A stretch of DNA of 21,091 bases from a virus, in the IMG/VR virus record IMGVR_UViG_3300042296_000889, positions 1 to 21,091 of that record; one strand, given 5' to 3'. This document shows, piece by piece, positions 2,834-16,304 of the stretch. How positions within the stretch are numbered: the stretch's first letter is position 1; each line of letters starts with the position of its first letter. Under the pieces are notes generated by a model that searched no databases, was not told the DNA's origin, and worked only from the letters and a program-made list of their open reading frames with translations. Position numbers and translations under genes: made by a program.

Positions 2834-3094
2834 TCATACCTCCGCTTCGCTGTTATTGGGGCAAACCTGCTCAACATGATTTACCTCGAAGTTAATCCCA
2901 TTCCCAGTGCTTACCACCCGCATCTCATGTATCTTCGCACCCTTGCGGGGCAGATAGCCTACGGGGTCAATCTCATTCCCATGTGTCGCTACCATTCGGT
3001 ACAATAGGGTCTTGAGGTGCTTGTTCTCTTCGTGGGTTGCCTCGTAATCTGATATCAGTGCATCGAGGTCTTTACGGAGTTTGGTGGTGTTCAT
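2834..3094 (-). CDS. hypothetical protein with N-terminal coiled coil
   Basis: The 86-residue product starts with a heptad-like region (LRKDLDALISDYEATHEENKHLKTLLYRM, roughly residues 6-34) that looks like a short coiled coil, followed by a polar tail without recognised motifs. The start context is GAATAACC before ATG. A 31-nt element that can form a pseudoknot lies 18 nt upstream of this start, so translation of this gene may be controlled in cis. Function unknown. Confidence 0.6.
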   Translation of the reverse strand: MNTTKLRKDLDALISDYEATHEENKHLKTLLYRMVATHGNEIDPVGYLPRKGAKIHEMRVVSTGNGINFEVNHVEQVCPNNSEAEV

Positions 3095-3112
3095 GGTTAT
3101 TCAATCCATTCT

Positions 3113-3143
3113 CCCTCTGACAATCCGCCCAGAGGGTTGGCGG
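3113..3143 (-). promoter_or_regulatory. candidate H-type RNA pseudoknot, copy 1
   Basis: On the minus-strand RNA, stem 1 is CCGCC with GGCGG (5 bp). Its loop holds AA then CCCTCTG, and the CCCTCTG pairs with a downstream CAGAGGG (7 bp) after a 5-nt linker ATTGT. This is the textbook layout of an H-type pseudoknot (loops of 2, 0 and 5 nt). It lies between the stop of the 3150-3332 gene and the start at 3094, ending 18 nt before that ATG. An element of the same 31-nt length and plan, with compensatory changes, occurs at 10075-10105. There is no T tract, so it is not an intrinsic terminator. Confidence 0.6.
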
Positions 3144-3149
3144 TTAAAA

Positions 3150-3332
3150 TCAAGATACACTAAACGTCTTACCTGTTGCTGTTTCGCAGTAATATCTGCC
3201 TATTAATCCATTTCTGTAATGAAAATCATGTGCAACAGATATAGCGTGATGGTCTGAAATTGCATTTAGCGTAAACTCGTGAATTTTTATTCCACCTGCT
3301 ATTTTAAACATGATAAATGTCGTTGATTCCAT
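3150..3332 (-). CDS. small hypothetical protein
   Basis: The 60-residue product starts at the ATG at 3332; a TTG start at 3347 would add five residues but has no better signal. It is rich in His and aromatic residues (AISDHHAISVAHDFHYRNG) and has no recognised domain. Upstream on the minus strand lies TTGAACTTTG, which partly matches a Bacteroidota -7 box, so a weak internal promoter is possible. The stop codon is 6 nt before the pseudoknot element. Confidence 0.45.
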   Translation of the reverse strand: MESTTFIMFKIAGGIKIHEFTLNAISDHHAISVAHDFHYRNGLIGRYYCETATGKTFSVS

Positions 3333-3361
3333 ACTATTCCAACTCAATTACAAAGTTCAAT

Positions 3362-3589
3362 TTATTCTGATTTGCCATAAATATCATCATAATATTCACG
3401 TGCTTGAAAATAGGGTATGCCATTCAAAACTTGCTCAGAGTAACCATCTGCAAATTCAATTATCTGCTCCCGTTCTATCTCCCGTGCCTCCTCAAACAAT
3501 TCAGCAAACTTCGGGCTCATGGGTTCGGATAAGTTCGATTGTATCTTCTCTTGAAGCCAATCTACTGCGGTGGTTTTTGGTGTGTTCAT
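3362..3589 (-). CDS. small conserved Bacteroidota phage protein
   Basis: This acidic 75-residue protein has the pattern TAVDWLQEKIQ near the N-terminus, then an EEAREIEREQIIEFAD helix in the middle. Proteins with a TAVEWL start and an ExAKExEKxQII helix recur in phages and prophages of Bacteroidota, from memory of the family type, and have no known function. The start overlaps nothing and the upstream gene ends 1 nt before it, which fits an operon. Confidence 0.65.
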   Translation of the reverse strand: MNTPKTTAVDWLQEKIQSNLSEPMSPKFAELFEEAREIEREQIIEFADGYSEQVLNGIPYFQAREYYDDIYGKSE

Positions 3590-3590
3590 A

Positions 3591-4415
3591 TCAATTCGGT
3601 TTAACTCTCAATGACTGCTTCCAATCGAGGTCGGAGGGTAGGGTGAATGGGGATGTTAACCCTTCTAAATACCTTTCATTTCCGTATAGCTTCACGCCAT
3701 ACCAATGACCATTCCCTTCAAAATCAAATGCATGAATATAAGCCCACTCAGGTGCTTTACTCCAATCGGGTTGATACGGGTCAGGTACAGCGGTCACAAT
3801 CTCATGTGTTGTTACCTTGTATTGGATTGGGCGAATGGGGCGGTAGTCACTCTGCATGACTACTGGTGGGTCAATAATAGATTGCCATATATGCCCTAAT
3901 GGATTCATTTTGCTTGGGTTCTCCACCTTAACCCACTTCTCCGCATCTGCTTCCTGACAGAACTCGTACCCATCGGGTAGGAGGTGGGTGTAGTCGGGTG
4001 CATTCGATATTGCTTCGGGTCGCATCATTAGCGTGGATTTCCAGTAGTCGGTGGGTAGTAGGTGGGCGTTGGTGGCTTCTGCACAACAAACTCTTTTCTT
4101 ATCGTCCATAATGCACCACATTTCATCATCGCAAGTAGGTATTTTATCCCACCAAAACCAATCTCCATTCCTATCCATCGCTACACACACCGCATCTTCG
4201 GGCGCATCCTTCCAGTCGGGGATGAAGTCGGGAAGTTCGTATTGTTCGCAAGTGTTCGGGATTTCCGAAGAGTTCAATTTACTGAAATTCGCACCCTTGT
4301 GCTGTTCGGCTAAGTGCGATTCAATCGCCTCAATGCGGTAGATGTTGTTCCGATTCGCCACTTTTAAGCGGGAGATTTCGGTTTCGAGTATTGCAATTCG
4401 TTCTTTGTTTTTCAT
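3591..4415 (-). CDS. phage protein with coiled coil and two tandem DW..AP modules
   Basis: I start at the ATG at 4415 (274 residues). The longer form from 4472 would overlap the upstream gene by 53 nt. Residues 1-40 form a coiled coil (KERIAILETEISRLK). Two related modules follow, at about 66-133 and 216-274. Each opens with PDWxxAPE, then an aromatic-rich strand (GDWFWW or GHWYGV), and ends with LPxDxxWKxSLxxxP. DW..AP repeats of this type are frequent in phage proteins of unknown role. The leader reads AATCAC directly before ATG. A structural or nucleic-acid role cannot be decided from sequence. Confidence 0.65.
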   Translation of the reverse strand: MKNKERIAILETEISRLKVANRNNIYRIEAIESHLAEQHKGANFSKLNSSEIPNTCEQYELPDFIPDWKDAPEDAVCVAMDRNGDWFWWDKIPTCDDEMWCIMDDKKRVCCAEATNAHLLPTDYWKSTLMMRPEAISNAPDYTHLLPDGYEFCQEADAEKWVKVENPSKMNPLGHIWQSIIDPPVVMQSDYRPIRPIQYKVTTHEIVTAVPDPYQPDWSKAPEWAYIHAFDFEGNGHWYGVKLYGNERYLEGLTSPFTLPSDLDWKQSLRVKPN

Positions 4416-4419
4416 GTGA

Positions 4420-4779
4420 TTAATTCGTTTTAGCATTCCTAAGTTGCTTATTCTGCCACTTCCTAAAATCATCGCAGTAGTACTTCATTATCCCAATTTG
4501 ACCCGAAGAGGTCATGAGGTCAGCAAGCATATCGTTCTCACGGGTCAGCCTGATGTTTGCCCGAAGTAGAAGTATGTTGTAGTTCATATTCGCCACCGCT
4601 ACGGCGTTCATTTTCCGCATCTGATAGAATGTAGCGCAATTCAGAATAAAGAGCAACACGAGGCAGATAATGGCGATTCTGAACCTTATGAAGTAGTATA
4701 GTGGTTCATCGCCTCTGTCGGTTAGATAGGTAATGACCATGACTATGTAGGTTCGGATGTTGGTGATTAGGGCTTTCAT
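4420..4779 (-). CDS. single-pass membrane protein with coiled-coil tail
   Basis: The 119-residue protein has one clear membrane helix at about residues 34-52 (IAIICLVLLFILNCATF), flanked by an Arg-containing N-terminal side. It is followed by a region able to form a coiled coil (NYNILLLRANIRLTRENDMLADLM). The arrangement is that of a small membrane-anchored helical protein such as an i-spanin (Rz-like) or an anchor, but its place in an early-type operon does not favour lysis. It overlaps the previous gene by an ATGA junction. Confidence 0.55.
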   Translation of the reverse strand: MKALITNIRTYIVMVITYLTDRGDEPLYYFIRFRIAIICLVLLFILNCATFYQMRKMNAVAVANMNYNILLLRANIRLTRENDMLADLMTSSGQIGIMKYYCDDFRKWQNKQLRNAKTN

Positions 4780-5312
4780 GGCTTCACATCGGTTAAGTTG
4801 AACACAATACCCATAAAGTACTTACCATCGCATTCCATTAGGTTGCGCTCGACTGTTTCAATTTGAAATTGGCTTCCTATGAATCTAAAGAACAAATCCA
4901 TGTGCTTGTAATTGTATGCGTGCCTCACAACCGTATAGGTGCAGTTCAGCAGGTGTTCTCTCTCGGTTGCGTTGTAGGGCGGTATCATATTCTTCAATTC
5001 TTCATGGTAAGTCAGCACATCGAACTTAACCCAGCCTTCACCATCTGGGCGATTATCGAGGCAAAAGGAATCGGTGTACTTCCATCCCAACAAGCCATAC
5101 ATGAGTTCAACTTCTACCCGACTGCCCTGCAACTTGCTGAGATAGGTCATAAAGGTATCCAAGGAATCGAAGTTAAATGCGATAGCCTTGCCATCATTGG
5201 TTAGATAGAACTCGCAGGTATCACGCTCGGATAAACCAGCGTTAGTGAGTTCTGCGTAGTTTGGGTGCGTGGGGTCAAGGAATAGTTCCTGACGTTTGGT
5301 TTGTGTTGTCAT
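4776..5312 (-). CDS. hypothetical protein
   Basis: This 178-residue acidic protein is mixed alpha/beta with several Cys (positions scattered, no CxxC) and many aromatic residues in its C-terminal half (AYNYKHMDLFFRFIGSQF). No domain or motif is recognised. The leader contains AATAATCAC upstream and ATCAACC just before ATG. It is followed by the membrane protein gene through an ATGA overlap, so the two are probably co-translated. Confidence 0.6.
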   Translation of the reverse strand: MTTQTKRQELFLDPTHPNYAELTNAGLSERDTCEFYLTNDGKAIAFNFDSLDTFMTYLSKLQGSRVEVELMYGLLGWKYTDSFCLDNRPDGEGWVKFDVLTYHEELKNMIPPYNATEREHLLNCTYTVVRHAYNYKHMDLFFRFIGSQFQIETVERNLMECDGKYFMGIVFNLTDVKP

Positions 5313-5325
5313 GGTTGATATGTGA

Positions 5326-5544
5326 TTATTCGGTTTCTACTATTATCCAATTGCCCCCGTTGAGGTATGAGCAATCTCGCTCAAGGCAAGATATTTTATT
5401 CCCATTGTCGGAAATGATGTTAAATCTATGCCCTGAATCATCATCTGAATGACGTTGCCAAAATCCTACTACGTCATAAATCTTGCCTGCGGTTAATCGA
5501 CTTGCGCACCCCTCTGGTGCTTGTACTTTGGTTGGTTTTTTCAT
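5326..5544 (-). CDS. small SH3-like phage protein
   Basis: The 72-residue protein reads as a compact beta barrel: CASRLTAGKIYDVVGFW, then HRFNIISDNGNKISCLERDCSYLNGGNWIIVE. The LTxGKxYDV opening and the final W-I-x-V strand are typical of small SH3-like or KOW-like phage proteins of unknown function. The upstream intergenic stretch of 64 nt (5545-5608) contains no convincing promoter or terminator. Confidence 0.6.
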   Translation of the reverse strand: MKKPTKVQAPEGCASRLTAGKIYDVVGFWQRHSDDDSGHRFNIISDNGNKISCLERDCSYLNGGNWIIVETE

Positions 5545-5608
5545 GATTGATTTGGTTAAACGTGATTGATAATTTGCGTTTTGCGGATGCGACCCCCGTT
5601 TGTTTTTA

Positions 5609-5833
5609 CTAATGCCAGTTTGTTTGGTTGGATGAGCCTCTTACACCTCCGTTGTAGCACCTTGCCACCTTGAAGTAAGCAGTGCCATAATTTTTAACCC
5701 TTGCATTTTCTTTAGCGATTTTCTTAGCCTCTTGCAAATTAGAAGCAATAATGTAGTCAAGAACCCTAACACCATCTGAGTACAACACTTGATAAGTGTT
5801 GCTTTGTTCTGTTTTCTGATTTTCTGTGTCCAT
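5609..5833 (-). CDS. small hypothetical protein, first gene of operon from P1
   Basis: The 74-residue product has an N-terminal polar stretch followed by YQVLYSDGVRVLDYIIASNLQEAKKIAKENA, a strand-helix arrangement seen in small phage proteins that pack a helix with EAxxxAxE against a sheet. No family is recognised. The start is fixed by the AACAATCAC leader that precedes it by exactly 3 nt, as at the two other operon heads in the window. Confidence 0.6.
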   Translation of the reverse strand: MDTENQKTEQSNTYQVLYSDGVRVLDYIIASNLQEAKKIAKENARVKNYGTAYFKVARCYNGGVRGSSNQTNWH

Positions 5834-5836
5834 AAC

Positions 5837-5892
5837 GTGATTGTTTAATGATTTGCAAGCAAGTTAGCATCTTTTCAAATACGCACGTCAAA
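5837..5892 (-). promoter_or_regulatory. candidate promoter P1 with AACAATCAC leader
   Basis: On the minus strand: TTTG (5892-5889), 22 nt, TAACTTGC (5866-5859), then a leader with AACAATCAC (5845-5837) 3 nt before the ATG at 5833. TTTG and TAnnTTTG are the -33 and -7 boxes known in Bacteroidota; the -7 box here is imperfect. The spacer begins ACGTGCGTATT, close to TCGGGCGTATT at the same place in P2 and P3. The region lies just outside the 3' end of the DnaA-C-like gene. Confidence 0.6.
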
Positions 5893-5899
5893 TATTTTT

Positions 5900-6367
5900 T
5901 TAATCTATCGTAAATATTTGATTCTGAGCGCAAAAAGTTTTCAGCGAATTTACCGCAGTTACAAAATATGGGTCTCTCGTGCATAGCATATCCTTGACTT
6001 TATCCCTGCTGTGAATGGTCGTTGCATGGTCGCACGGGTACACAATCGAACCCGCTTGCCTCAGGGTCAAGTCTACGAAATGGCAGTAGTACCACCTTAG
6101 TATGTGCCTGATGCTGGCAATCTCAACCTGACGCAGAGGCGATTGAACTTCACCCAAGGTCATGTATCGGTCGAACACACGTTGATTTCCCTCGAATCTA
6201 TCGACTTCATTCTTCTTGACTATCTGCCGATGCACCCAAGGTCGGAACACCTCAATGTCGGGTATCTTGCCTGTGCCCATGCCCAATTCCTCGTTCATGG
6301 CATTGATTAGGATTGCATGGGTTCTGTCTTTGCCAAGTATTTCAATGGCTCGCTGGTAGGTTGTCAT
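5900..6367 (-). CDS. DnaA domain IV-like DNA-binding protein
   Basis: The 155-residue product has, at about residues 83-130, a region that follows the DnaA C-terminal helix-turn-helix: IRHILRWYYCHF (compare the MYL.R helix), DLTLRQAGSIV (compare the SLPEIGRxF helix), and DHATTIHSRDKVKDML (compare RDHTTVLHAxRKI). There is no Walker A motif, so the AAA+ part of DnaA is absent. It may bind an origin or act as a regulator. The signature DHxT followed by a His fits well, but the domain should be confirmed by a profile search. It is the last gene of the middle operon and overlaps its upstream neighbour by an ATGA junction. Confidence 0.65.
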   Translation of the reverse strand: MTTYQRAIEILGKDRTHAILINAMNEELGMGTGKIPDIEVFRPWVHRQIVKKNEVDRFEGNQRVFDRYMTLGEVQSPLRQVEIASIRHILRWYYCHFVDLTLRQAGSIVYPCDHATTIHSRDKVKDMLCTRDPYFVTAVNSLKTFCAQNQIFTID

Positions 6368-6669
6368 TTGATTAGTTTTGATTCCTTAAACGCCTTAATT
6401 ACCTCGATTGTCTGCTCAGGATTCATATCCAATACAGCATCTAATAATATCTGAGTATTCCTTTGTTCATCGTATAGTGCCTCAACCATGTCTTCGGGTA
6501 GATTCCGTTCAATTAGGGTCATGATGGGATTGAGTGAATCTAATACGTCCTTAAACTTGCGCTTCCCGTATCGCTCGGATTTCGTATCGCCTTGGGTTAT
6601 TGTGGTCAATTCGGGATGGCACAGCAACGTGGCGTGCAGGAGTTGGATTAATTGGATGGTGCGGGTCAT
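6364..6669 (-). CDS. small helical hypothetical protein
   Basis: The 101-residue protein is nearly all helical (TIQLIQLLHATLLCHPEL, then DVLDSLNPIMTLIERNLPEDMVEALYDEQRN). It has no membrane segment and no recognised motif. The helicase-methyltransferase gene ends 1 nt upstream of its start and its stop overlaps the start of the DnaA-C-like gene, so it is probably translated from the same message as both. Confidence 0.6.
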   Translation of the reverse strand: MTRTIQLIQLLHATLLCHPELTTITQGDTKSERYGKRKFKDVLDSLNPIMTLIERNLPEDMVEALYDEQRNTQILLDAVLDMNPEQTIEVIKAFKESKLIK

Positions 6670-6670
6670 G

Positions 6671-8860
6671 TTAGAATAAACTAATTTGATTCTTGCTCAA
6701 TACAACCGATTTCAAATTATTTTTCGCCACATTGAAGTAACTTTCTTTTAATTCAAATCCTATCGCTTTCCTGCCCATTTTAACCGCCTGATAAGCCTCA
6801 GACCCAATTCCTAAAAACGGAGTGAATACGGTATCTCCTTTATTGCTATAAAGGTGAATTATTCTTTCAATGGTGTCAAGTTGAAGCGGGCAAATGTGCT
6901 TTTCGTCATTTTCGGTTCTTCCATCCCTATATCCCTGCAATGTATTGCCATAGTCAATATCCATCCAAACAGGGGATGCGTATTTTTGCCACAAATCAAC
7001 GGGTAAATCAGTATTAGTTACGGGATTGGTTCTTTCTCCATCCTTTCTAAATATCATAACATAATCAGGAATGCCAACTCTGCTCATAGTGCTGTCTTTT
7101 TTGACCTGCTTATGCAACAAACCTAATGCCTTTGTACGTTGCATTTCAACAACTGGGTCTTTCCATATTGTAACCCTGCTGGCGTAAATAAATCCTGCAT
7201 CTTCAAATGCCCTCAGAATCATTCCAGAAAAATCCCGCAATCCGATAAATCCCTCTTTACCCTTTTGTATAGGTAAGTCCATGCAGTGTACTGCAACATT
7301 CCTACCTTGCATCATAACTCTATAAAGTTCTTTTATCAGGAATCCAAATTGAGTCAAAAATTCATTATAATCTTTTGAATTACCCATGTCCTCAATATGA
7401 CTTGAGTATGTGTATAGTTCTGCGAATGGTGGAGAAAATACAGACAATCCAATGCTTTCACTTCCTATCTCTTTAATAAGTTGGACTGAATCACCCCTTT
7501 TTACTTTATACCACTCGTTTGATTCTTCCAATGTATCAAACTCTGATTGTGTCATTAATTCACCTTTAAGGTGTGCGCTTACCGCATTGCTCATTTCTTG
7601 TTGCATGGTTTCGAATTGTTGTTGTTTTTTGTCTATTGATTGTTTAACATTTGCCATTGTATCTGTTGTTACCAGATAAATATTTACTTGTTCTTTTTGC
7701 CCGAATCGGTAACTTCTTCTAATTGCCTGATACAAACCCTCGAATGAAAAATCTAATGATGCAAAAATCTGATTCCTGCAATTCTGATAATTCATCCCGA
7801 ATGATGCTATTTTTGTCTTGGTAATTAAAATTCTAAATTCATTATTACCAAATCCTAATAACGTCTTTTCTTTATATTCGCTGGTGTCATTACCTTTTAC
7901 CTCTTTTGCATCTGGCAGTAGTTTTTTCAGCATTTCACCCTCCTCATTTTGCTTTATCCAAATTATAAAATTTTCATCAGGTCGTGAATTTATAATTTTA
8001 ACAACTTCGTCCATGCGTTCCTTTTTGGTTAATCTTAACTCGCTATTGAAGTTTGTGGCAGAAATAATTGCATCATTAAATAGTTGACCATTATCCCGCT
8101 TTGGGGTCTTTATTTGGCATTCAACTATATTAAGTGATGGTAGATTATACCCCGACATTTCAAATCCAATATCGCAAGGGTTATTTAGCATTACCGCCCA
8201 ACTACCTATAAATTCATAAAACAATTTAGACGCATGCCCCTTTAATCTCCATTTTGCCGTTTCGCCTCCGTCATGAACAAAGTACATTGCAAGCATTTCA
8301 TTTCTGCTCATTACATCTAAGAACTCAGAATGATTACCTAATTCCATAGGGTCGTTCGGGCTTGGTGTCGCAGTGCATGCAAGTTTGTACGGAGTATTTG
8401 AAAACAAGTCAATTATTAACTTCTTTGTTGAACCCTCAAAATTCTTTAGTATGGAACTTTCATCTAATACGATTCCTGAGAATATACTGCAATCAATGTT
8501 GTCTAATTGCTCGTAATTACTAATTTGAATAGGCGAATTACTGCCATCATATTTGCATACGTTAATGTTAAACTTCAATCCCTCTTTAATTGTTTGACCT
8601 GATACTGCAAGCGGTGCAAGTATCAATACGGGCTTGTTGGTGTGAATACTTACCTGATTAGCCCATTCTAACTGCATCAGGGTTTTGCCTAATCCGCAGT
8701 CTGCAAATATGGCATACTTACCTGCCTTTAATGCTCTTTTTACTATGAATTTCTGAAACTCAAACATTGAATTGTTTAATGATTCTGATTCAATATCGAA
8801 TCCAGAAAACACATGCGCTTTTTGCTTCTTGTTAAGAAACTCTTGATATTCGTTTTTCAT
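6671..8860 (-). CDS. SNF2-type helicase fused to an N4/N6 DNA methyltransferase
   Basis: The 729-residue protein has two parts. Residues 1-430 are a SNF2-like SF2 helicase: ADCGLGKT (53-60), DESS (133-136), TATP (163-166) and QAIRRSYRFGQ (378-388). Residues 450-715 are a beta-type DNA amino-methyltransferase: SPPF catalytic motif IV (476-479) comes before the AdoMet-binding region FTPFLGIGS (679-687) and a GFEL acidic loop (701-704). SPPF is a variant of the DPPY/SPPY motif. The C-terminus is QISLF, which matches the beta-sliding-clamp binding pentapeptide. It probably methylates phage DNA, perhaps while translocating, which would protect against restriction. The leader is A-rich with no Shine-Dalgarno sequence. 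Confidence 0.85.
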   Translation of the reverse strand: MKNEYQEFLNKKQKAHVFSGFDIESESLNNSMFEFQKFIVKRALKAGKYAIFADCGLGKTLMQLEWANQVSIHTNKPVLILAPLAVSGQTIKEGLKFNINVCKYDGSNSPIQISNYEQLDNIDCSIFSGIVLDESSILKNFEGSTKKLIIDLFSNTPYKLACTATPSPNDPMELGNHSEFLDVMSRNEMLAMYFVHDGGETAKWRLKGHASKLFYEFIGSWAVMLNNPCDIGFEMSGYNLPSLNIVECQIKTPKRDNGQLFNDAIISATNFNSELRLTKKERMDEVVKIINSRPDENFIIWIKQNEEGEMLKKLLPDAKEVKGNDTSEYKEKTLLGFGNNEFRILITKTKIASFGMNYQNCRNQIFASLDFSFEGLYQAIRRSYRFGQKEQVNIYLVTTDTMANVKQSIDKKQQQFETMQQEMSNAVSAHLKGELMTQSEFDTLEESNEWYKVKRGDSVQLIKEIGSESIGLSVFSPPFAELYTYSSHIEDMGNSKDYNEFLTQFGFLIKELYRVMMQGRNVAVHCMDLPIQKGKEGFIGLRDFSGMILRAFEDAGFIYASRVTIWKDPVVEMQRTKALGLLHKQVKKDSTMSRVGIPDYVMIFRKDGERTNPVTNTDLPVDLWQKYASPVWMDIDYGNTLQGYRDGRTENDEKHICPLQLDTIERIIHLYSNKGDTVFTPFLGIGSEAYQAVKMGRKAIGFELKESYFNVAKNNLKSVVLSKNQISLF

Positions 8861-8896
8861 TTTGGTTTTTATGATTTTGTTTAAAAGTTCAATTAA

Positions 8897-9187
8897 TTAT
8901 TCGTACTCCCCCCTCAATCTCTGATTGCATTCCTGTACCTGTGAATCATCGTTCTCAAGCATGTACTTCATATTATACTCAATTACCTCCGCCACACTCA
9001 CTTGTGGTGGCATGTAGAACCGCTCACCCTGCATCGTTACGATGTCGGCAAGGGAGAAGGATGGGTAATCATCCCATGTAAGCGGGTCTACACTGTGTAC
9101 CTTGGTACATATCTCCACAGGACTCGGATGCCAATACCCCCGTTCGTATAGGGCTTTTGATTGTTCGTAATTTGTGAATCCGTGCAT
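8897..9187 (-). CDS. hypothetical phage protein starting MHGFT
   Basis: The 96-residue acidic protein begins MHGFTNYEQSKALYERGYWHP and carries a central FSLADIVTMQGERFYMPPQVSVAEVIEY segment. No domain is recognised. Its first five residues and the 18 nt around its start are identical to those of the gene just upstream (9190-9372). The 36-nt gap to the helicase-methyltransferase gene holds only its A-rich leader. Confidence 0.6.
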   Translation of the reverse strand: MHGFTNYEQSKALYERGYWHPSPVEICTKVHSVDPLTWDDYPSFSLADIVTMQGERFYMPPQVSVAEVIEYNMKYMLENDDSQVQECNQRLRGEYE

Positions 9188-9191
9188 GGTT
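9174..9191 (-). repeat. 18-nt direct repeat at gene start, copy 1
   Basis: The sequence AACCATGCACGGATTCAC on the minus strand covers the start codon and first five codons of the 8897-9187 gene. It is identical to 9376-9359, which covers the start of the 9190-9372 gene. Confidence 0.85.
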
Positions 9192-9372
9192 ATTCTGTAA
9201 ATACTCGTTTAATTTTAACTGATGAAATAAGGTTGCCATCTGAATCAAATTTGTGTTTAAACAAATCATATCCAACAACTCGCATCCCCTTGTAAATTAT
9301 ACCATGATTCGGATGATAAACACCATCTGCCATTACAGGTATTTTAATTAGTTTAGTGGTGAATCCGTGCAT
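9190..9372 (-). CDS. small hypothetical protein starting MHGFT
   Basis: The 60-residue product is basic and probably beta-rich (VYHPNHGIIYKGMRVVGYDLFKHKF). It shares only the MHGFT start with the next gene, from which it otherwise differs, so the similarity is limited to the start region. The start context is TTGAACC before ATG. Function unknown. Confidence 0.55.
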   Translation of the reverse strand: MHGFTTKLIKIPVMADGVYHPNHGIIYKGMRVVGYDLFKHKFDSDGNLISSVKIKRVFTE

Positions 9373-9376
9373 GGTT
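9359..9376 (-). repeat. 18-nt direct repeat at gene start, copy 2
   Basis: Exact second copy of the sequence at 9174-9191, 185 nt away, again spanning a start codon and its first codons. Confidence 0.85.
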
Positions 9377-9600
9377 CAATAGCAATAAGTTGTTGTCGTG
9401 GATTTCATGCCGTTGGCACTGCTCTTCTTAGTCTTGCCATTAACAGCACGCAGATTCGCTCCGCACTCCTCATGTACGAAGGTGTAGGAATAGTTGCTAC
9501 CATTAGCCGTTGTGGTCATAGTGGATTTGCAGGTAGCGCACTTGTTCTTGCATCCGATAATTCCAGATGCGAGGATGATTAAAATTGTTAATTGTTTCAT
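9376..9600 (-). CDS. small phage lipoprotein
   Basis: I start at the ATG at 9600 (74 residues), because MKQLTILIILASGIIGC is then a compact signal peptide with a lipobox-like IIGC and Cys at residue 17; an ATG four codons earlier is also possible. After the Cys come CKNKCATCKS and a Ser/Thr-rich stretch with further Cys. The mature protein would be lipid-anchored on the outer face of the inner membrane or in the outer membrane. Phage lipoproteins of this size commonly block superinfection or are o-spanins; the sequence does not decide. The start lies 1 nt after the upstream stop codon. Confidence 0.7.
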   Translation of the reverse strand: MKQLTILIILASGIIGCKNKCATCKSTMTTTANGSNYSYTFVHEECGANLRAVNGKTKKSSANGMKSTTTTYCY

Positions 9601-9601
9601 G

Positions 9602-9817
9602 TTAAATATCATTTGTTAATAAAACATTTGCAATTCTCAAGGCAACAGCCTCAGAATTAATTTCACTTCTTTGCTTGTAATCGGTATTTACTACCCAATT
9701 CCCAAAAGTGTCTTTTGTCAGCACCATTAAGAAATACTCATACCCATTCTGTATTGGGCTTTTCTGTCTGACAATTTGAACTTTCTTATTGCCTTGTTCG
9801 AGTTCTTTGTGTAGCAT
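9602..9817 (-). CDS. small hypothetical protein
   Basis: The 71-residue product is beta-rich in the middle (YEYFLMVLTKDTFGNWVVNTDYKQ) with a helical end (SEAVALRIANVLL). No motif is recognised. A 13-nt gap separates it from the upstream gene and 1 nt from the lipoprotein start, which fits an operon. Confidence 0.55.
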   Translation of the reverse strand: MLHKELEQGNKKVQIVRQKSPIQNGYEYFLMVLTKDTFGNWVVNTDYKQRSEINSEAVALRIANVLLTNDI

Positions 9818-9830
9818 GATAATTACTTAC

Positions 9831-10058
9831 TTACTCGTTTCCACCGATTCCGCACGGTGTTTGGCGTGGATTAAATACACAGTCAAGATTTAATGACGAC
9901 CCTTGCTTTGAATTTACAATAGGAACTACTTTATACATAAAAGTAGCATCCCCTTGTTTATTAATAAAGTCATAGCATTGTTCCTCTGTTCCTTCAAAAC
10001 ATTCTTGACCTTCATCTGGTGTATAAACCAAATCTAATACCTTGTGTGTTGGTTTCAT
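9831..10058 (-). CDS. small hypothetical protein downstream of the second pseudoknot
   Basis: The 75-residue product begins MKPTHKVLDLVYTPDEGQECFEGTEEQCYDFINKQG, which resembles small phage proteins with an xGTxEECxxFI helix start, and continues with a beta-like MYKVVPIV. No family name can be given. A candidate pseudoknot ends 16 nt before its start, and the region between holds a small GAAC/GTTC hairpin. It follows the XRE regulator gene. Confidence 0.55.
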   Translation of the reverse strand: MKPTHKVLDLVYTPDEGQECFEGTEEQCYDFINKQGDATFMYKVVPIVNSKQGSSLNLDCVFNPRQTPCGIGGNE

Positions 10059-10074
10059 ATTGAACTTTGTTCTT

Positions 10075-10105
10075 CCCGCTGTCCATCCGCTCAGCAGGGT
10101 AGCGG
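10075..10105 (-). promoter_or_regulatory. candidate H-type RNA pseudoknot, copy 2
   Basis: Minus-strand RNA: stem 1 CCGCT with AGCGG (5 bp); the loop is A then CCCTGCTG, which pairs with a downstream CAGCGGG (7 bp with one bulged T) after the 5-nt linker ATGGA. Compared with copy 1 at 3113-3143, the total length (31 nt) and the 5-nt linker are the same. Stem 1 has changed C:G to T:A, and stem 2 has changed T:A to G:C, both compensated. It begins right at the stop of the XRE gene and ends 16 nt before the ATG at 10058. Confidence 0.6.
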
Positions 10106-10366
10106 TTACACCCCACCGCCCTCAAGTGTAGCAATTACACTTGAGTTTGGTACAGCGTTTAATATCTCACTTACATTTACATTCAGCACATCCGCAATCT
10201 TCATCAATCTTGGAACTGATAAAACCGTAATACCTCGCTCGATTCGCTCGTAGGTGTTGGTTGTCATATCCAATCTAACCGCCATCTTCTTCTGAGTCAA
10301 TCTCGTGTCCTTGCGGAGCGATTTGATGCGCCTTCCGATTGACTTACTGATTTCGTAGTCAGTCAT
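10106..10366 (-). CDS. XRE-family helix-turn-helix regulator
   Basis: The start at 10366 is set by a perfect GGAGG ribosome binding sequence; it gives 86 residues. Residues 10-64 are an XRE/Cro-type helix-turn-helix: IGRRIKSLRKDTRLTQKKMAVRLDM, then TTNTYERIERGI, then LMKIADVLNVNVSEIL. This is a DNA-binding regulator of the type used for phage operon control. It sits inside the middle operon rather than divergent from it, so it is probably an early regulator rather than a classic lysogeny repressor. A natural target to test is the conserved spacer GCGTATT of promoters P1-P3. Confidence 0.85.
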   Translation of the reverse strand: MTDYEISKSIGRRIKSLRKDTRLTQKKMAVRLDMTTNTYERIERGITVLSVPRLMKIADVLNVNVSEILNAVPNSSVIATLEGGGV

Positions 10367-10556
10367 TATCCTCCTTTGATTGCTTGTACTTTTCATCGCC
10401 TATGCTCATTTCAGTCCAGAACTCATCATCATCGTCCGTATCCAACTCCGATTGCTCGCATACATCGCAGGTTTCGTCCTCGTTAAGATTGCCCGCTAAA
10501 TTAGGTGTCTTGCACTTCTTGCAAGGCATCACCTCGTTCTCATCACCCCAAGCCAT
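10359..10556 (-). CDS. small acidic zinc-ribbon-like protein
   Basis: The 65-residue product has two Cys pairs, CKKC (residues 12-15) and CDVC (about 30-33), followed by a very acidic stretch (SELDTDDDDEFW). This suggests a small zinc ribbon. A GGAGGG sequence lies 9 nt upstream of the ATG. It overlaps both neighbours by 8-14 nt, so translation is coupled to the XRE gene. Confidence 0.6.
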   Translation of the reverse strand: MAWGDENEVMPCKKCKTPNLAGNLNEDETCDVCEQSELDTDDDDEFWTEMSIGDEKYKQSKEDND

Positions 10557-10773
10557 TTAACTTCGCCCTCCTTGCTCGCTCACGGGTGATGGCTCTCGAC
10601 ACGCTTCCGAAGTCGGGTACTTCACGCAGTCGGTTGCGCTGGTGTACGGTCAGTTTCAAGCCGTGCATCTCCCATACATTTATAACTATATCAATGTTGG
10701 TTATGTCAGGATTGGCTGACATCAATGCCCGAACCTTGCGGGCAATGAATGGGTTAGAATGGGAGGTCTTCAT
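10543..10773 (-). CDS. small basic hypothetical protein
   Basis: The 76-residue protein is Arg-rich in its C-terminal part (QRNRLREVPDFGSVSRAITRERARRAKLNG). The pattern, with VSRAITRERARR, is frequent in small phage proteins next to replication genes, and DNA binding is plausible. Its start lies within the 3' end of the DUF3127 gene (20-nt overlap). Confidence 0.6.
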   Translation of the reverse strand: MKTSHSNPFIARKVRALMSANPDITNIDIVINVWEMHGLKLTVHQRNRLREVPDFGSVSRAITRERARRAKLNGLG

Positions 10774-11104
10774 TTGTAGTGGCTGTTGTTGGTGTTTGTG
10801 GCTCGTGCTGGATGTCTTGAATTACCTTAACCTTCCAGCATCCGATTGTATTGAATACCTTCATAGTGTCCGTTTTCGGGTCTTTCCATTCCCTGCCTCG
10901 GATGTCGCAATCGAACTCGACTACCTGACCGTTGATTAACTTATCGCCCTCAGCGCATCGGTCACCTGCCAACTCAATCTGAATGGTTTGCGGATAATCG
11001 GTATCGCTGTCGATTAAGACGTGAACCGCTCTGATTTGGAAGTTGTTTCCTTTTACTTCCGTTTGATTTACACGAACTACCGTGCCTGTGATTTTGATTT
11101 TCAT
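10754..11104 (-). CDS. DUF3127 OB-fold protein, likely ssDNA-binding
   Basis: The 116-residue protein matches DUF3127: an N-terminal strand KIKITGTVVRVNQTE, then YPQTIQIELAGDRCAEGDKLINGQVVEFDCDIRGREWKD and a final GCWKVKVI strand. The family is an OB-fold group of Bacteroidota and their phages, believed to act as single-strand-binding proteins. After about residue 97 the tail is disordered (PQTPTTATTNE) and ends DLPF, close to the acidic DDIPF tip that bacterial SSB uses to recruit partners. Its position next to the YqaJ exonuclease supports a recombination/replication role. Confidence 0.75.
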   Translation of the reverse strand: MKIKITGTVVRVNQTEVKGNNFQIRAVHVLIDSDTDYPQTIQIELAGDRCAEGDKLINGQVVEFDCDIRGREWKDPKTDTMKVFNTIGCWKVKVIQDIQHEPQTPTTATTNEDLPF

Positions 11105-11108
11105 ATTC

Positions 11109-11729
11109 TTAAAATGTTACTTGTTGATAATACTTTTCGAACTTCGTCCAGAACTTGACGATGCTTGCCATTAACTCACCCAACTCGACCTGCACTTCAT
11201 CACGTGTGATGCGGTGAATATAAAGCGGACGTGGTGCGAATCTTGGGTCATACGATACGAAGTCAAGCCACTGCATATCTTCGTTGATTAAGAAGTATTG
11301 GAGCACTTGATACTTGTGTTCGTTCGGTAGTCCACCCATGCGGATAGTGCGGATGTGCGTCTTCGTATTAGGACACTTCACCTCAACTGCGCCCGTTCTG
11401 TCGGGTGTCAATCGGTCAGGGCTCATGCCAAGATAATCGAATACCTTGTGCGTACAGAAGCCGACTGCCTCCATTTGATTGCCTGTCTTCGCTGTGTATG
11501 CCTGTACTGCATCGTCTTCGTGGTCTGTGCCCCATTGCATAGCATCGGATACATAACCGTCCTGAGTATCCCACAGCGCATCGTCTGGGCAACTGCGCTC
11601 GTATATCAGCGCATCGACTACTTTCAAATTGTCCGACTTCATAATGTCGGCAACCCTGCTACTGGTTATTCGTCCTATTCGCAATTTGTGCCACTCTGGC
11701 GTTCCTTGCTCTACTTTGTGCTCTATCAT
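11109..11729 (-). CDS. YqaJ-like (lambda exonuclease family) recombinase exonuclease
   Basis: The 206-residue protein carries the YqaJ/lambda-exo PD-(D/E)xK core: QGTPEWHKLRIGRITSSR at 8-25, WGTDHE with Glu 71, MSPDRL with Asp 105, AVEVKCP with Glu 116 and Lys 118, and HKYQVLQYF with Gln 141. All expected catalytic residues are present. It should resect double-stranded ends 5' to 3' to feed single-strand annealing during phage recombination or concatemer formation. No RecT/Beta-type annealase is evident; the neighbour at 11726-12223 sits in that position. The two genes overlap by an ATGA junction. Confidence 0.88.
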   Translation of the reverse strand: MIEHKVEQGTPEWHKLRIGRITSSRVADIMKSDNLKVVDALIYERSCPDDALWDTQDGYVSDAMQWGTDHEDDAVQAYTAKTGNQMEAVGFCTHKVFDYLGMSPDRLTPDRTGAVEVKCPNTKTHIRTIRMGGLPNEHKYQVLQYFLINEDMQWLDFVSYDPRFAPRPLYIHRITRDEVQVELGELMASIVKFWTKFEKYYQQVTF

Positions 11730-12361: not shown

Positions 12362-12472
12362 GTGATTGTTTTTAAAAGAATACACGAAGGTAGTTCTATT
12401 CACAATACGCCCGACAAAATAAACATAAACTTTTTTTAAGTCTTTGATTGTCAGGTGGAAAAATTTACATGA
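12362..12472 (-). promoter_or_regulatory. candidate promoter P2 with AACAATCAC leader and upstream block
   Basis: Minus strand: TTTG (12418-12415), 22 nt beginning TCGGGCGTATT, TACCTTCG (12392-12385), then AACAATCAC (12370-12362) 3 nt before ATG. Counted by eye, about 65 of the 88 positions from 12385 to 12472 match P3 at 16217-16304 without gaps. They include a conserved upstream block (12472-12451) with GTAAATTTTTCCACCT. It drives the fifteen-gene middle operon. Confidence 0.68.
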
Positions 12473-12473
12473 T

Positions 12474-13604
12474 TTATAACGTATCTGTCCACTTCTTGAT
12501 AATTTCATCTTCTTTTTTCAATTTGTTCTTGTGCAATATCTGGTCTTTTGTGTAGTTAAATTCATTATCTCTTGCCCATGTAATATTGCCTTCCCAGTCA
12601 CAAAGAAGTATTCGCTTGACCATGTATTTACACGCTCCGACATCATCGGTATCGCCAAACCTACTCCACTGATATTTGAATAGTTTAGACAGGTCTGGAT
12701 GGATGCTACTCAATAAAAAATCCTTGTATTCCTTCCACGTTTTAAAATTGTCAGGCAATGTTTTAATCGAGTAAATCAAATCTTCTTTAGCATAAATTGA
12801 AGCCGTATGCACGCCTTGTAATCGCTCCTCAAGTTTGTTGTATGTATCGGGTTCAAGTTCCTGCAAATCGGTCAAACACCTGAATGCCTTTTCGTGAATT
12901 AAATTCGATACACGCAATGTTCTGAGGTCATGACCCAGCATGTACATCTTGTCATAAATACGATTGTATTTATAATCGCCCTCAATTAAATACTTCCAAA
13001 TATCTTTATACTTCCAGTCAATAATTGGATATGCCTTGTGCGGTTCGTTTATTCTGCGCAACCAAAACATTTCCGAATCTTCACCAAATAAAACAAACCT
13101 TCTATCTGGGCTTTCCTCTGCCCTCAATCCAATAATTGATACACTTGTACCTTCTAATTTTCGCAAGTTCTGACCTACCCATAAATTAAACTTGTGGAAT
13201 CGTTTTGGGTATTTATTTTCAATGCTATGAATTGCAACAGGGTGCTTATCTCGTACCCATTTTTCATCATCACCCCATGCCCATAAAAACAACTGACTTG
13301 TACTGCAAGCATTGGTCATAAATATAGGCACTTGATACCAAAACGGTATAACATTAGGTTGAGTCATTACCCATTCGACAAGTTCAATTGTTGCGCTATA
13401 CTCGGCTTCTTGGTCTTGAAAATAAACAATAAACTTTCGGTCACGCCTCTTTGCTTCTTCATTGAGCAAGTGAAATAATACGGTGCTATCCTTGCCTCCA
13501 GAGAATGATAATGAAACATTGTCGTAATTATCGAATAGATATGCAATGCGCTTGTTTGTTGCATCTAATACATTCTCTATTCCCCTAATTGCTGTGCGTG
13601 CCAT
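12474..13604 (-). CDS. IbrA-like PAPS-reductase-fold protein (PP-loop)
   Basis: The 376-residue protein has a PP-loop SFSGGKDS at 33-40, typical of PAPS reductases and N-type ATP pyrophosphatases, and a long C-terminal region like that of DUF3440/IbrA proteins (FRCLTDLQELEPDTYNKLEERLQG). IbrA and IbrB in E. coli prophages are needed for expression of immunoglobulin-binding proteins; the chemistry is not known. The related DndC acts in DNA phosphorothioation. Here it follows the IbrB-like gene with a 1-nt TAATG overlap and a strong GGAGG sequence. A role in modifying phage DNA or in gene control is inferred. Confidence 0.8.
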   Translation of the reverse strand: MARTAIRGIENVLDATNKRIAYLFDNYDNVSLSFSGGKDSTVLFHLLNEEAKRRDRKFIVYFQDQEAEYSATIELVEWVMTQPNVIPFWYQVPIFMTNACSTSQLFLWAWGDDEKWVRDKHPVAIHSIENKYPKRFHKFNLWVGQNLRKLEGTSVSIIGLRAEESPDRRFVLFGEDSEMFWLRRINEPHKAYPIIDWKYKDIWKYLIEGDYKYNRIYDKMYMLGHDLRTLRVSNLIHEKAFRCLTDLQELEPDTYNKLEERLQGVHTASIYAKEDLIYSIKTLPDNFKTWKEYKDFLLSSIHPDLSKLFKYQWSRFGDTDDVGACKYMVKRILLCDWEGNITWARDNEFNYTKDQILHKNKLKKEDEIIKKWTDTL

Positions 13605-16195: not shown

Positions 16196-16304
16196 GTGAT
16201 TGTTAAAATGATACTACGAAGGTAGTTTGTTTCGAAATACGCCCGACAAACCAACCTAATCTTTTTTGTAACTCGTTGAGAATGAGGTGAAAAATTTTAC
16301 ACGA
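16196..16304 (-). promoter_or_regulatory. candidate promoter P3 with AACAATCAC leader and upstream block
   Basis: Minus strand: TTTG (16250-16247), 22 nt beginning TCGGGCGTATT, TACCTTCG (16224-16217), then AACAATCAC (16204-16196) 3 nt before the ATG at 16192. It aligns with P2 over 88 nt without gaps, including the upstream block at 16304-16283 with GTAAAATTTTTCACCT. It drives the five-gene operon ending with the IbrA-like gene and is divergent from the tRNA promoter. Confidence 0.68.

Follow-up and report, generated by a model that had tools for sequence, protein, structure and literature searches.

The window analysed here is a 21,091-base virus record (IMG/VR record IMGVR_UViG_3300042296_000889) with a helicase-methylase protein closest to those of Flavobacterium columnare phages (53% identity). 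From 16.2 to 2.2 kb it carries about 31 small minus-strand genes, most of which overlap or are separated by less than 15 nt. Only five gaps in this array exceed 25 nt, and two of them (55 nt and 47 nt) are occupied by the 31-nt elements A and B, each of which can fold as an H-type pseudoknot (Table 1). We confirm the observation of two pseudoknot-capable elements on the same plan, made in an initial annotation of this DNA with exact sequences and coordinates. The plan, 5-2-7-0-5, comprises a first stem of 5 bp, a loop of 2 nt, a second stem of 7 bp, a gap of 0 and a loop of 5 nt. Standard pairs form at 12 of 12 positions in A and at 12 of 12 in B, where stem 2 holds one U-G pair. Loop 1 is 2 nt long in both elements, not 1–2 nt as first described. 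A and B differ at 8 of 31 positions (26%, rather than the third given before), five of them in stems, and no pair is broken. Two of the pair changes are compensated, C-G to U-A in stem 1 and U-A to G-C in stem 2, which verifies the earlier claim of C:G to T:A and T:A to G:C exchanges, and one is C-G to U-G.

Table 1. Elements A and B and the surrounding genes, in positions of the window.
Feature	Position	Strand	Description
Element A	3113-3143	minus	H-type pseudoknot, 31 nt; CCGCC AA CCCTCTG GGCGG ATTGT CAGAGGG
A stem 1	3143-3139 with 3129-3125	minus	
A loop 1	3138-3137	minus	
A stem 2	3136-3130 with 3119-3113	minus	
A loop 3	3124-3120	minus	
Element B	10075-10105	minus	H-type pseudoknot, 31 nt; CCGCT AC CCTGCTG AGCGG ATGGA CAGCGGG
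B stem 1	10105-10101 with 10091-10087	minus	
B loop 1	10100-10099	minus	
B stem 2	10098-10092 with 10081-10075	minus	
B loop 3	10086-10082	minus	
Leader between A and downstream ATG	3095-3112	minus	Purine/A-rich; 18 nt (19 nt in L004, 25 nt in L006)
Leader between B and downstream ATG	10059-10074	minus	A-rich; 16 nt (24 nt in L010, ~50 nt in L003)
86-aa gene downstream of A	2834-3094	minus	No known family
65-aa open reading frame (ORF) upstream of A	3150-3347	minus	Other small gene in its place in L004; absent in L006
75-aa gene downstream of B	9831-10058	minus	No known family
XRE/Cro-type helix-turn-helix gene upstream of B	10106-10396	minus	Absent in L010, where B is still present
SSB-like gene (DUF3127, phrog_4932)	10754-11104	minus	Same array, 650 nt upstream of B

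Conservation at gene-swap junctions

A pattern with 22 fixed bases returned four records from IMG/VR, and looser patterns returned one more. The five further copies found in IMG/VR all belong to close relatives: A occurs in L004, L005 and L006, and B in L003 and L010. The three A copies are identical to that of the window (31 of 31 positions), and each B copy matches at 30 of 31, the change being a G-U pair in one relative and a long-loop change in the other. In all copies the two helices are interleaved and the loops sterically feasible; 12 of 12 pairs are kept in every one, and all seven are intercistronic and in sense orientation. The initial annotation had stated that homologues retaining the sequence but showing no paired changes would speak against a structured RNA; the five homologous copies are fully paired and do not refute it.

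The strongest feature, absent from the initial annotation, is a conservation island at gene-swap junctions: conservation is confined to approximately the pseudoknot while the neighbouring genes are replaced. The A slot always lies ahead of the 86-aa gene, and the B slot always ahead of a 71-aa gene at 9602-9817. L004 has a different gene upstream of A, and its homology to the window ends at 3144, one base before the element. L006 lacks the upstream gene and has an extra gene inserted between A and the 86-aa gene, leaving an aligned island of 43 nt; in L010 both neighbours of B differ from those of the window, and the aligned island measures 41 nt. These blastn islands of 41–43 nt have 95% identity and are bordered by non-aligning flanks. 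L003 lacks 205 bp downstream of B (most of the 75-aa gene and the leader), and homology ends at 10073, 2 nt past the element. Of the 20 nt that precede the element, only 5–8 match in L004, L006 and L010, compared with 30–31 of 31 for the element itself. At the local identity of 81% in L006, a match of 31 out of 31 is expected with P ~0.0015 (0.81 to the power 31).

Outside the two elements, a further intergenic island, CGGGGG[T/A]CGCATCCGCAAAACGCAAAT, lies at 5559-5600 on the minus strand. It has no notable nested fold, and its counterpart in L006 (2878-2919), 93–95% conserved, precedes a different gene. In L010, the non-coding stretch directly upstream of B (10500-10633, plus strand) has a strong fold (z -3.8) and a possible internal pseudoknot, and is preceded at ~10455-10487 by a tRNA-like 3' half that is called by neither ARAGORN nor Rfam.

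The remaining IMG/VR matches to the wider patterns were rejected as chance matches, nearly all of them GC-rich and with 7–11 of 12 pairs. No copy turned up when the exact pattern was run against GTDB with one genome for each species. With 2 mismatches allowed, 395 Bacteroidota genomes yielded no copy beyond one match in L152, rejected for being antisense, within an ORF and broken in stem 1. A blastn search against phage GenBank records gave short chance matches only, and a structural descriptor detected no copy in 926 kb from more distant relatives, a set that included homologues of the second gene downstream of A. Rfam covariance models gave no match at the elements in the window, which was checked up to E = 5, or in the relatives, in agreement with the earlier statement that no known riboswitch is matched.

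Pairing, energetics and strand

Chance occurrence was assessed by searching both strands of 60 Markov-1 shuffled windows (2.5 Mb). Taken together, these held the exact plan three times (0.05 per window), with a stem score of at most 3, compared with 10 for A and 7 for B, and nothing with similar loop sizes reached a stem score of 7 or more in these shuffled windows (n = 60). After 8 random substitutions A would keep all 12 pairs with P = 0.001. One double change is seen in each helix on the RNA strand, and the six known stem substitutions are all pair-preserving. Shifting the partner columns by 1–3 positions reduces pairing from 100% to 35–67%.

Stem stacking sums amount to -22.5 to -27.7 kcal/mol, compared with -9.6 to -12.9 kcal/mol for the best nested folds. 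The pseudoknot would therefore be preferred if its loop cost were less than about 13 kcal/mol. Published pseudoknot penalties are around 10 kcal/mol.

The wobble in B joins element positions 10 and 29, and the L003 copy has a further G-U at 11-28. On the opposite strand these wobbles become A-C mismatches, leaving 11 of 12 pairs in B and 10 of 12 in L003. RNA is favoured over DNA because only the sense strand permits the wobbles, the dyads are interleaved and the orientation is always sense. The sequences thus favour elements that would act as RNA in the operon transcript. The RNA-level control suggested by the initial annotation is partly supported in that both helices covary, all five homologous copies are fully paired and the wobbles are sense-only; the fixed spacing that went with it fails.

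Spacing and neighbouring signals

In the window a TGA precedes A by 6 nt and an ATG follows it after 18 nt; B directly abuts a TAA (0 nt) and is followed 16 nt later by an ATG. The distances of 0–6 nt from the stop and 16–18 nt to the ATG noted earlier are correct for the window and do not extend to the relatives. Across copies, the stop-to-element distance is 0–19 nt (17–19 nt in L006 and L004, with no adjoining gene in L010) and the element-to-ATG distance 16 to ~50 nt. Mechanisms with a fixed geometry, such as readthrough and frameshifting, are unlikely because the spacings vary among the relatives.

No conserved promoter-like motif was found upstream of the elements, and a promoter reading was rejected for this reason. 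An intrinsic terminator was also rejected, as no T run follows the stem and the elements are unlisted in the terminator scan; so was an attC-like cassette site, as no core-site pair was seen (by eye only). A likely phage promoter motif, TTTGTCGGGCGTATT and AACTACCTTCG, is found in the window only at 12385-12418 and 16217-16250. Two 102-nt copies with 72% identity, at 12371-12472 and 16203-16304 on the minus strand, precede two minus-strand genes, and both have the Bacteroidota promoter-like TTTGTCGGGCGTATT...AACTACCTTCG. Related copies occur in L080, L081, L116 and L010.

Elsewhere in the array, a YqaJ-type recombinase gene at 11109-11729 adjoins the minus-strand SSB-like gene. The 3' end of the XRE-type gene holds a perfect 10-bp hairpin, CTCAAGTGTA-ATTGC-TACACTTGAG (10121-10145, minus strand; fold z-score -3.4), which ends 15 nt before B. 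The PAPS-reductase/DUF3440 gene at 12474-13604 on the minus strand has homologues of 73–100% identity in 37 viral contigs, and its position relative to its neighbours varies among some of these contigs, which points to a widely moving gene.

Discussion

In our judgement A and B are probably, if not with great confidence, lineage-specific cis-acting intercistronic RNA pseudoknots that lie at a gene-swap junction and act on the translation or stability of the downstream message. Each element would form a cis-acting H-type pseudoknot between genes of a long minus-strand phage mRNA. The 2-nt loop would cross the 7-bp stem and the 5-nt loop the 5-bp stem, which is near ideal for coaxial stacking, and an unstructured purine/A-rich leader would then run up to the next AUG. 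The fold would form in the cell and may bind a protein, either phage SSB-like or from the host, or block exonucleases or ribosomes, and could thereby set the translation or stability of whichever small gene sits downstream. As a shared homologous patch, the pseudoknot may also be a crossover point at which phages swap neighbouring genes. We infer a candidate trans-acting factor in the SSB-like DUF3127 protein.

Several observations weigh against a regulatory pseudoknot. With just four distinct sequences, the covariation appears modest, supportive and not conclusive, and its score was matched by 24 of 500 column shuffles. B has a nested competitor fold of -11.5 kcal/mol, and its stem 1 faces rival pairing from upstream sequence in the window and L003 contexts. 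In L077, a 72%-identical homologue of the 86-aa gene directly follows the neighbour gene, with no element between them. The element is not essential to the 86-aa gene, because L077 has the gene without it, and this genome together with the more distant relatives that lack the element shows that it is dispensable. The range of 16 to ~50 nt to the ATG speaks against a mechanism with exact geometry.

The elements could instead work mainly at the DNA level, as a short shared junction sequence for phage recombination, the double dyad being either incidental or a cruciform or recombinase target. We consider this unlikely. It does fit the breaks in homology between relatives at the element edges, with differing side genes in L003, L004, L006 and L010, the like behaviour of other short intergenic islands such as 5559-5600, and the recombination genes encoded in the array (the YqaJ-type exonuclease and the SSB-like protein). 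However, a linker has no need for kept pairing, and the orientation is always sense to the flanking genes. The dyads are interleaved, as a pseudoknot requires, and not nested, the differences between A and B are compensated and G-U changes that are legal on the sense strand only, and each element keeps its own slot without spreading.

It is less likely still that A and B are a neutral remnant, that is, two old copies of one intergenic sequence that pair by chance. The few distinct sequences and the more distant relatives without the element agree with such a remnant, but the rarity of the exact plan in shuffled windows, where none is comparably strong, does not. Nor does a remnant account for an element that is better conserved than the adjoining DNA and in which six out of six stem substitutions keep the pairing.

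In the T4 gene 32 operator, gp32 nucleates first at a pseudoknot of ~28 nt and subsequently coats the unstructured start region (PMC535899). This operator may serve as the closest working model for A and B. A translational operator of the same style for the phage SSB-like protein (DUF3127), with nucleation at the pseudoknot followed by cooperative coating of the leader and start site, would have much of the right anatomy: as in T4 and RB69, an H-type pseudoknot of ~28–31 nt lies between genes of a tailed phage and is followed by a less structured, A-rich leader and an AUG (PMC535899), and the phage has its own SSB-like protein, here encoded in the same array. Such an operator is nevertheless improbable, a little more so than a remnant. 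The SSB-like gene itself has an upstream gap of 4 nt and no element, whereas the two copies precede small genes that show no relation to SSB. The leaders are shorter than in T4 and RB69, most of them 16–25 nt rather than more than 40 nt, and contain no UUAAA repeats or UAAA-rich stretch. Of the comparison with gene 32 drawn in the initial annotation, the anatomy alone stands, since neither downstream gene encodes an SSB-like protein.

That the elements stimulate readthrough of the upstream stop codon, or frameshifting, into the downstream gene, as their start 0–6 nt after a stop in the window could suggest, is very improbable, given stop distances of 17–19 nt in L006 and L004, the lack of any likely gene that reaches the element in L010, unrelated upstream genes and no conserved slippery sequence.

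Other phage elements resemble A and B in part. The SAS and ESAS of cluster K mycobacteriophages are short conserved intergenic repeats just upstream of small-gene starts, with unknown function (PMC3203893). They share with A and B the intergenic placement before small phage genes, and ESAS carry inverted repeats. Each genome has many SAS, which adjoin the start codon, whereas the window has two copies, and their distance from the start varies; the inverted repeats of ESAS are simple and imperfect, in contrast to the interleaved pairing here. PeSLs, reportedly described by Arbiol et al. in 2010, are mobile regulatory cassettes of T4-type phages with an early promoter and a stem-loop. They are likewise structured intergenic elements kept where phage gene modules shuffle, but A and B have a pseudoknot in place of a stem-loop, and no promoter was found directly upstream of them. 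Type III toxin-antitoxin RNAs (ToxI and AbiF antitoxins) are tandem pseudoknot repeats cleaved by an endoribonuclease encoded next door. These are phage-associated H-type pseudoknots of similar size upstream of a gene, as are A and B; we rejected this identity, as A and B are single copies and their neighbours match no ToxN/AbiF-type family in Pfam or PHROGs.

Our verdict is that A and B would represent a narrow-range new variant among phage intercistronic regulatory structures. Somewhat more tentatively, they may belong to a new, uncatalogued class of phage cis-regulatory RNA, in which a minimal pseudoknot cassette fixed at a genome slot would control any small gene recombined behind it, with two diverged slot-bound subtypes. 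Bacteroidota phages often exchange small genes, which raises the question of how newcomers are suitably expressed inside a long operon. If the regulatory pseudoknot is real, a structured RNA that stays put as the genes behind it are exchanged would offer a simple solution; it would also extend phage mRNA pseudoknots beyond T4 gene 32 to hosts that mostly lack Shine-Dalgarno pairing.

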